The position numbers and the translations under genes were made by a program. From Streptomyces coryli (GTDB lineage: Bacteria > Actinomycetota > Actinomycetes > Streptomycetales > Streptomycetaceae), in assembly GCF_011044975.1 (NCBI RefSeq), contig NZ_JAAKZV010000059.1, positions 1-36,015 of the forward strand: 36,015 nucleotides of DNA. The letters run 5' to 3'. Below, piece after piece: positions 21,261 through 25,707 of the stretch. The notes beneath the pieces were generated by a model. That model worked only from the letters and a program-made list of their open reading frames with translations. It ran no database searches and was not told where the DNA came from. Positions within the stretch are counted from its first letter, which is position 1. Every line of letters starts with the position of its first letter.

Positions 21261-21578
21261 GTGGCGCAGCGCGTAGTGGTGACCCTGTCCGACGACATCG
21301 AGGGCGGCGACGCTTCCGAGACGGTCATCTTCGGTCTTGACGGGAAGTCGTACGAGATCGACCTCAACAAGACCAATGCAAAGAAACTGCGCACCGCGCT
21401 GGCCCCCTACCTCGAGGCCGGCCGCAAGCGTTCGAACTCGGGCAAGGCCTTCAAGCGCACCTCCCTCGCCCCCGACCCGGCGACGGTACGGGCCTGGGCG
21501 CAGTCGCACGGCAAGGAGGTCCCGGCCCGCGGGCGGATCCCGAAGCGGATCTACGAGGAGTTCGAGGCCGCGCACTGA
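21261..21578 (+). CDS. lsrL: Lsr2-family nucleoid protein, paralogue (LsrL type)
   Basis: A 105-residue Lsr2 homologue. The N-terminal oligomerisation domain has VAQRVVVTLSDDIEGG and VIFGLDGKSYEIDL. A basic linker (KRSNSGKAFKR) leads to the C-terminal domain with VRAWAQSHGKEV and the AT-hook-like ARGRIP. Lsr2 proteins bridge AT-rich DNA and silence horizontally acquired and secondary-metabolite genes. This copy is next to purS, as the second paralogue is in S. coelicolor (SCO4076 by memory). The classical lsr2 lies 13 kb to the right. The GTG at 21261 has AAAGGA eight bases upstream. The two proteins differ most in the linker. Confidence 0.93.
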   Translation: MAQRVVVTLSDDIEGGDASETVIFGLDGKSYEIDLNKTNAKKLRTALAPYLEAGRKRSNSGKAFKRTSLAPDPATVRAWAQSHGKEVPARGRIPKRIYEEFEAAH

Positions 21579-21609: not shown

Positions 21610-21640
21610 TTGCGCCGCACCCCCGGCCGTGGGCTAGAGT
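21610..21640 (+). promoter_or_regulatory. Candidate promoter of tRNA-Gly(TCC)
   Basis: TTGCGC (21610-21615) and TAGAGT (21635-21640) with a 19-bp spacer, ending 43 bp before the tRNA. The -10 is good; the spacing is slightly long. Confidence 0.4.
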
Positions 21641-21683: not shown

Positions 21684-21755
21684 GCGGGTGTAGCTCAGTA
21701 GTAGAGCGCCCTCTTTCCAAGAGGGAGGCGCAGTGTGCGATTCCTGTCACCCGCT
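21684..21755 (+). tRNA. tRNA-Gly (TCC) with abnormal D-loop and T-arm
   Basis: A 72-nt cloverleaf. The acceptor GCGGGTG/CACCCGC is perfect, the discriminator is T, the D-stem is GCTC/GAGC, and the anticodon stem CCCTC/GAGGG holds TTTCCAA, anticodon TCC. The D-loop reads AGTAGTA, so the invariant G18 is A. The T-arm reads GCAGTGTGCGATTCCTGT; it folds only with a bulged T in the stem, and the loop is TGCGATT instead of TTCGATT, replacing the invariant U55 by G. Both partners of the G18-psi55 tertiary pair are therefore changed. It is either a tRNA with a special job or a decaying one. Confidence 0.85.
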
Positions 21756-21782: not shown

Positions 21783-21855
21783 GCGGACGTAGCTCAGCTG
21801 GTAGAGCGCAACCTTGCCAAGGTTGAGGTCGCCGGTTCGAACCCGGTCGTCCGCT
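21783..21855 (+). tRNA. tRNA-Gly (GCC), copy 1
   Basis: A canonical 73-nt cloverleaf. Acceptor GCGGACG/CGTCCGC, discriminator T, anticodon loop TTGCCAA with anticodon GCC between CAACC and GGTTG, and T-loop TTCGAAC. It is identical to the copy at 25635-25707 over 74 bases including one flanking C. CCA is not encoded. It lies 27 bp after tRNA-Gly(TCC) and probably shares its transcript. Confidence 0.96.
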
Positions 21856-25634: not shown

Positions 25635-25707
25635 GCGGACGTAGCTCAGCTGGTAGAGCGCAACCTTGCCAAGGTTGAGGTCGCCGGTTCGAACCCGGTC
25701 GTCCGCT
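25635..25707 (+). tRNA. tRNA-Gly (GCC), copy 2
   Basis: Identical in all 73 bases to the copy at 21783-21855 and in the same orientation. The flanks differ; here the gene is followed by CCA, so TCCA is encoded. Together the two copies bracket the ABC exporter and its two-component system. Confidence 0.96.

Follow-up and report, generated by a model that had tools for sequence, protein, structure and literature searches.

The window analysed here, a 36,015-nucleotide stretch of Streptomyces coryli DNA, carries a non-canonical tRNA-Gly(UCC) gene on its plus strand (21684..21755; 72 nt, CCA not encoded), hereafter the odd tRNA. Its syntenic upstream neighbour on the same strand encodes an Lsr2-like protein (21261..21578; PF11774, 6.6e-26), and a promoter-like sequence, TTGCGC - 19 nt - TAGAGT (21610..21640, plus strand), lies upstream of the odd tRNA. 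The motif TTGNNN-N16-20-TANNNT is found within 130 nt upstream of the odd tRNA in 81/81 homologous regions versus 0.6% of shuffles; because the regions are homologous, this figure describes conservation of the site rather than 81 independent matches. Immediately downstream follows a canonical tRNA-Gly(GCC) gene (21783..21855, plus strand), which is identical to a second one at 25635-25707, the pair flanking ABC transporter and two-component genes.

Structure of the odd tRNA

The Rfam tRNA model matches exactly positions 21684-21755 of the plus strand with 54.6 bits (cut-off 29); ARAGORN, run on the window, does not list a tRNA-Gly(UCC) there. The initial annotation had described perfect acceptor, D and anticodon stems combined with A18, G55 and a bulged U in the T stem, and the sequence bears out each of these points. 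The acceptor (7 bp), D (4 bp) and anticodon (5 bp) stems are all paired, and the anticodon is UCC. The D loop, AGTAGTA, provides A18 G19 (21700..21701, A18 being 21700), which is invariant across the alignment and stands where canonical tRNAs have G18. The T arm reads GCAG[U]G / UGCGAUU / CCUGU, with the pair A51-U63 at 21732/21745, and six consecutive bases within it are invariant in the alignment (21732..21737): A51 (21732), G52, the bulged U (21734), G53, U54 and G55 (21737). In genome G499 the bulged base is C, so U is not strict.

In an alignment to the S. noursei canonical tRNA-Gly(UCC), the odd tRNA shows one additional T-stem base, A51-U63 for G51-C63, G55 for U55 and A18 for G18. The alignment of the odd copies shows what is retained without variation: U8, A14, G19, U33, A37, G53-C61, U54, C56 and A58. 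Among the features of an elongator tRNA, U8, A14, G19-C56, U33, A37 and A58 are thus present and invariant, whereas the G18/U55 combination and a continuous T stem are absent, having given way to A18, G55 and the bulge. The window gene is 71-74% identical to the canonical Streptomyces tRNA-Gly(UCC) and tRNA-Gly(CCC), and its acceptor stem is the same as that of the S. noursei tRNA-Gly(CCC); the two canonical tRNAs differ in being 71 nt long and in having G18/U55, G51-C63 and no bulge. Free folding yielded a complete cloverleaf neither for three odd copies nor for the canonical tRNA, and is therefore uninformative here.

Conservation and range

Loci were found by a scan for the Lsr2-like neighbour protein, and the best 80 of 501 relatives were taken, so the set is weighted toward close kin. 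The odd tRNA lies downstream of the lsr2-like gene in 80/80 of these named loci. Of the 80 copies, 79 are fully readable (that of L023 starts with N) and represent 21 distinct sequences, in which the acceptor stem and T arm are near-constant while the D and anticodon stems vary with compensation. Across the 21 sequences, 99.8% of 441 pair cells are paired, versus 51-55% with slid partners; four pairs have changed on both sides, and 49-65 is G-U in 20/21. A decaying tRNA, the alternative raised by the initial annotation, or a sequencing error would account for the non-canonical bases and for the silence of ARAGORN. The identical odd bases in 80/80 loci, genus-wide and with compensated stems, refute both, and we give this explanation practically no weight: bases kept in every locus are neither chance nor error. 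That this is a real, conserved gene is virtually certain.

Copy number per locus is one in 66 of the 80 loci, three in 13 and four in one. The loci with three or four tandem copies (L009, L011, L014, L016, L018, L020, L029, L038, L042, L043, L048, L051, L067 and L079) belong mainly to verticillate species and their kin, judged by name.

A covariance model built on the odd tRNA matched 49 of 61 family genomes at 86.6 bits or more, and gave nothing above 68.2 bits in the other 12; it is on this search that the absence from the non-carriers rests. The lsr2 locus was located in 11 of the 12 non-carriers. Ten of these loci continue with two tRNA-Gly(GCC) genes, and the cut locus L200 with one. A PurQ+Lsr2 tree (91 rows including the window) places the 11 non-carriers, a sister clade, on one side of a single branch (93/93); a single gain or a single loss is thus enough to explain the distribution. 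Since the odd tRNA occurs in every genome of the genus, the non-carriers presumably belong to other genera. A class-wide pattern scan found the odd tRNA in 40/394 genomes, a 41st match (G185) being no tRNA; with the pattern reversed as a control, 9 genomes matched. A looser pattern returned, outside the carrier group, a single clear tRNA, a tRNA-Gly(CCC)-like gene of G354 that has C55. Occurrence of the odd tRNA on plasmids or phages was considered and rejected: five plasmid records matched at 78-79% identity (Acetoanaerobium, Paracoccus), and no phage record matched.

Translation of GGA or donation of glycine

All 71 Rfam tRNA matches in S. noursei were read. For glycine they comprise the odd gene, one canonical UCC gene, one CCC gene and two kinds of GCC gene, and among 52 distinct tRNAs (48 read by script, three by eye) the odd tRNA is the sole one without U55. 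Each of 76 genus genomes contained two or more matches to a combined pattern. Both the odd tRNA and one canonical tRNA-Gly(UCC) were read in 71 of these: S. noursei, tRNA by tRNA, and 70 others with one canonical UCC gene and one to three odd genes. The other five, G475, G478, G481, G486 and G504, gave two matches each. The second, canonical UCC gene that the initial annotation had proposed looking for was thus read in 71/76 genus genomes, S. noursei included, an outcome in favour of that annotation, and S. coryli, judging from its relatives, probably has one as well. This coexistence means that GGA can be read without the odd tRNA, which is very probably not required for that purpose; the suggestion that it might be the unique GGA decoder does not hold for the 71 genomes in which both genes were read.

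The odd tRNA could nonetheless decode GGA in the ordinary way, perhaps more slowly. A18/G55 would then act as a structural substitute, the T stem would accommodate its bulge, and the gene would add capacity or fine-tune GGA decoding. The UCC anticodon, U33 and A37 are indeed invariant, and the coordinated nature of the 18/55 swap, described below, implies that the tRNA elbow may be intact. Against this stand the canonical UCC gene, the rarity of GGA (16/347 glycine codons in nine window ORFs) and a fixed T-stem bulge with A51-U63, which would be odd in a tRNA devoted to translation. We consider such a role unlikely, though well worth keeping in view.

We propose instead, at about even chances, that the odd tRNA serves as a glycyl donor set aside from translation, most likely for the cell wall via FemX. 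The gene would yield a second, specialised tRNA-Gly(UCC). Features thought to be needed by glycyl-tRNA synthetase (GlyRS) are kept, and the tRNA is in all likelihood charged with glycine. A51-U63, the bulged base and A18/G55 would together weaken binding to EF-Tu, and on balance the tRNA is probably largely excluded from translation; a poor EF-Tu ligand would leave its glycine for a non-ribosomal acceptor. FemX could then take this reserved glycine for the peptidoglycan bridge. Several observations weigh against the donor reading, the presence of FemAB in non-carriers, described below, among them. The decoding features, U33, U34 and A37 among others, are invariant beyond what GlyRS would be expected to need, and the odd tRNA keeps G49-U65, a strong EF-Tu pair (PMC4052509).

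The choice of FemX follows from its distribution. FemAB (PF02388) is present in 30/30 of the family genomes searched, 18 of which carry the odd tRNA and 12 of which do not, and is the only glycyl-tRNA user found in all of them, which makes a cell-wall glycine donor the likeliest role. In Streptomyces one glycine, attached to LL-Dap, forms the bridge, and we know of no description of how the genus keeps this glycine off the ribosome. The literature searched, with subscription journals largely outside it, yielded no description of a Streptomyces cell-wall tRNA-Gly. The FemX of S. coelicolor is described as using aminoacyl-tRNA (PMC4052509). As all 12 non-carriers have FemAB, the enzyme does not require the odd tRNA; the FemAB proteins of nine scored non-carriers are 57-65% identical to that of S. 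noursei (scores being available for 18/30 rows). That FemX is the main user of the odd tRNA is, on this genomic evidence, a tentative assignment that we hold at slightly under even chances.

The occurrence of FemAB without the odd tRNA also leaves room for a reserved glycyl donor with a non-peptidoglycan acceptor, served for example by a Fem-like or other GNAT enzyme, and FemX-like enzymes of Streptomyces natural-product pathways are reported to use Gly-tRNA (PMC12945691). Such pathways are strain-specific, however, whereas the odd tRNA is genus-wide, and a candidate Mom, another possible user, scores above cut-off in only 3/41 genomes; this explanation appears improbable. Less probable still is a regulatory RNA or a nuclease-resistant reserve tRNA. 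A Bacillus cereus pseudo-tRNA, as described in PMC3399842, does affect cell-wall traits without translating, but the charging features of the odd tRNA are intact. We know of no target or nuclease that would fit such a role.

The cell-wall donor proposal has a partial counterpart in Staphylococcus aureus, whose bridge contains five glycines versus one in Streptomyces, and whose non-proteinogenic tRNA-Gly(UCC) isoacceptors were reportedly treated by Giannouli in 2009. These tRNAs have UU or CU at 18/19, carry the pairs A49-U65 and A51-U63 and are weak EF-Tu ligands (PMC4052509, PMC9976931, PMC8007984); the two A-U pairs stand for G49-U65 and G51-C63 (PMC4052509). A contig from the viral collection, L350, which we take to be staphylococcal, holds two tRNA-Gly with G55 and A51-U63 that match this type. 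They lie in a host-like cluster of 19 tRNA genes (L350:12302-12643) with four consecutive tRNA-Gly(UCC), two of which show the G55 pattern. The Staphylococcus parallel drawn by the initial annotation thus stands in part: the UCC anticodon, a canonical UCC gene alongside, an altered position 18, G55 (in L350) and A51-U63 are common to both. It fails at 18/19, where S. aureus has UU or CU and Streptomyces invariant A18 G19, and the Streptomyces tRNA further differs in its G49-U65, for A49-U65, and in its T-stem bulge.

The 18/55 swap and phage mom genes

Viral contigs were scanned for tRNA-Gly in two sets, one with G55 and one with any base at 55, of at least 120 stretches each. Among the matches listed, and by a crude parse, U55 tRNAs have GG at 18/19 in 106/111 (four unparsed, one AG) and G55 tRNAs have AG in 64/67, the rest being L256 and two of L350. 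Because U55 goes with G18 and G55 with A18, A18/G55 looks like a coordinated replacement of the contact and not a loss, contrary to the earlier view that both partners of the G18-psi55 contact had been lost. At 51-63, a G-C or C-G pair occurs in 104/111 U55 versus 22/65 G55 tRNAs among the matches listed, other T-stem pairs being no weaker; counted by family (80% identity), the contrast is smaller, 26/28 versus 15/24 among the matches listed. The swap offers a sequence signature for finding tRNAs that act outside translation, and it has already led to genes linked to mom.

The neighbour shared most widely by the G55 tRNA families is a Mom-family protein (PF25680, E 2.3e-38; phrog_1384), found in 6/24 families and 23 contigs among the matches listed. 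With a mom model built from 20 neighbours on G55 contigs, mom lay within 1 kb of 42/119 G55 tRNAs versus 1/119 U55 tRNAs among the matches listed, with one further U55 case more distant; given the origin of the model, only the U55 side is independent. The single U55 tRNA-Gly found at a mom gene (L475:9029-9100) is itself odd, with A at 8 and C at 37. The remaining 77/119 G55 tRNAs among the matches listed have no mom on the available stretch and may simply translate.

A reverse search started from 80 mom loci, of which 79 were used (L279 was excluded), with a detector designed after examples had been seen. A tRNA-Gly-like sequence starts at -136 to +6 of the mom ORF end in 29/79 loci, versus 0/79 in each of the upstream, antisense and shuffled controls. 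By the detector's parse, 21/29 have a T-stem bulge, U33 is missing from 19/29, and eight measure just 65-68 nt. With base 55 left free, 30 mom-linked tRNAs were obtained, in which G55 goes with A18 (12/12) and U55 with G18 (9/9), with one C55; four of the 21 rows in this tally were assigned by eye (one unassigned, three script-called AG), and the eight short ones were left unscored. Eleven mom-linked 73-mers show changes on both sides in 15/21 pairs, with 99.6% of cells paired versus 38-44% when slid.

Many of these genes lack U33 or a D arm, and they sit at or inside the 3' end of mom. Examples among loci L523-L601 are L572:3596-3668 and L557:2271-2343; further cases are L602:2082-2154, L605:2101-2171, L606:2154-2228 and L603 (2154-2320). 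Eight named-phage loci were opened in all. An annotated tRNA-Gly lies 32 nt past the mom CDS in Salinibacter phage B2_17 and in Microbacterium phage Appa, on the opposite strand in Appa; in Arthrobacter phage Shade a tRNA-Gly-like sequence overlaps the mom end, and two short ones were seen by eye in Psychrobacter phage vB_PmaS_Y8A. No tRNA-Gly-like sequence adjoins mom in Mu, JD024, phiEf11 or Melnitz.

By mass, the Mu modification corresponds to a glycine residue. Mom has been described as transferring an acyl group from acyl-CoA, for example glycyl-CoA (PMC7824862). The arrangement at the mom end suggests that Mom may instead take glycine from tRNA, the mom-end tRNAs looking like dedicated glycyl donors, and these genes are a direct lead on the donor that Mom uses. 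In the literature searched, which largely left subscription journals outside, we found no report of Mom acting with glycyl-tRNA.

The mom-linked tRNA-Gly would accordingly suggest an independent case of such tRNAs acting outside translation. Together, the S. aureus and mom cases suggest that tRNA-Gly with G55 and a weak or broken T stem tend to act away from translation, which raises the odds of a donor role in Streptomyces but falls short of proving it. The mom-end tRNAs share with the odd tRNA the 18/55 swap (in part), a one-base T-stem bulge (in most) and glycine acceptor features. They differ in having the bulge on the 3' strand and often AA at positions 8-9, in the absence of U33 or the D arm from many of them, and in their link to Mom rather than FemX; unlike many of them, the Streptomyces tRNA retains its decoding features. 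It is possible, though we lean somewhat against it, that tRNA-Gly combining A18/G55 with an interrupted T stem form a general class of glycyl donors off translation, serving the cell wall in Streptomyces and, in phages, a Mom that uses glycyl-tRNA and not acyl-CoA. The phage tRNA would then lie at the mom end because Mom draws on glycyl-tRNA to make its modified adenine. Mom was also considered as the user in Streptomyces itself and rejected, the detector finding nothing tRNA-like beside the seven matches there. For Streptomyces, a genus-wide, separately promoted glycine tRNA beside a normal one makes the question of the bridge glycine testable.

A second tRNA-like element, a 70-mer with a UCC loop and G55, was seen in Streptomyces loci L382, L383 and L384-L397 (for example L388:5148-5217 and L396:4949-5020). 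The Rfam tRNA model gave no match to it in five loci, and no neighbouring protein cluster was shared by more than two of 16 loci. The element is dispersed in 1-5 copies in 19/394 class genomes, all of them carriers of the odd tRNA. Each copy is flanked, by eye, by promoter-like and terminator-like sequence, and its stems are 100% paired in 8 distinct sequences.
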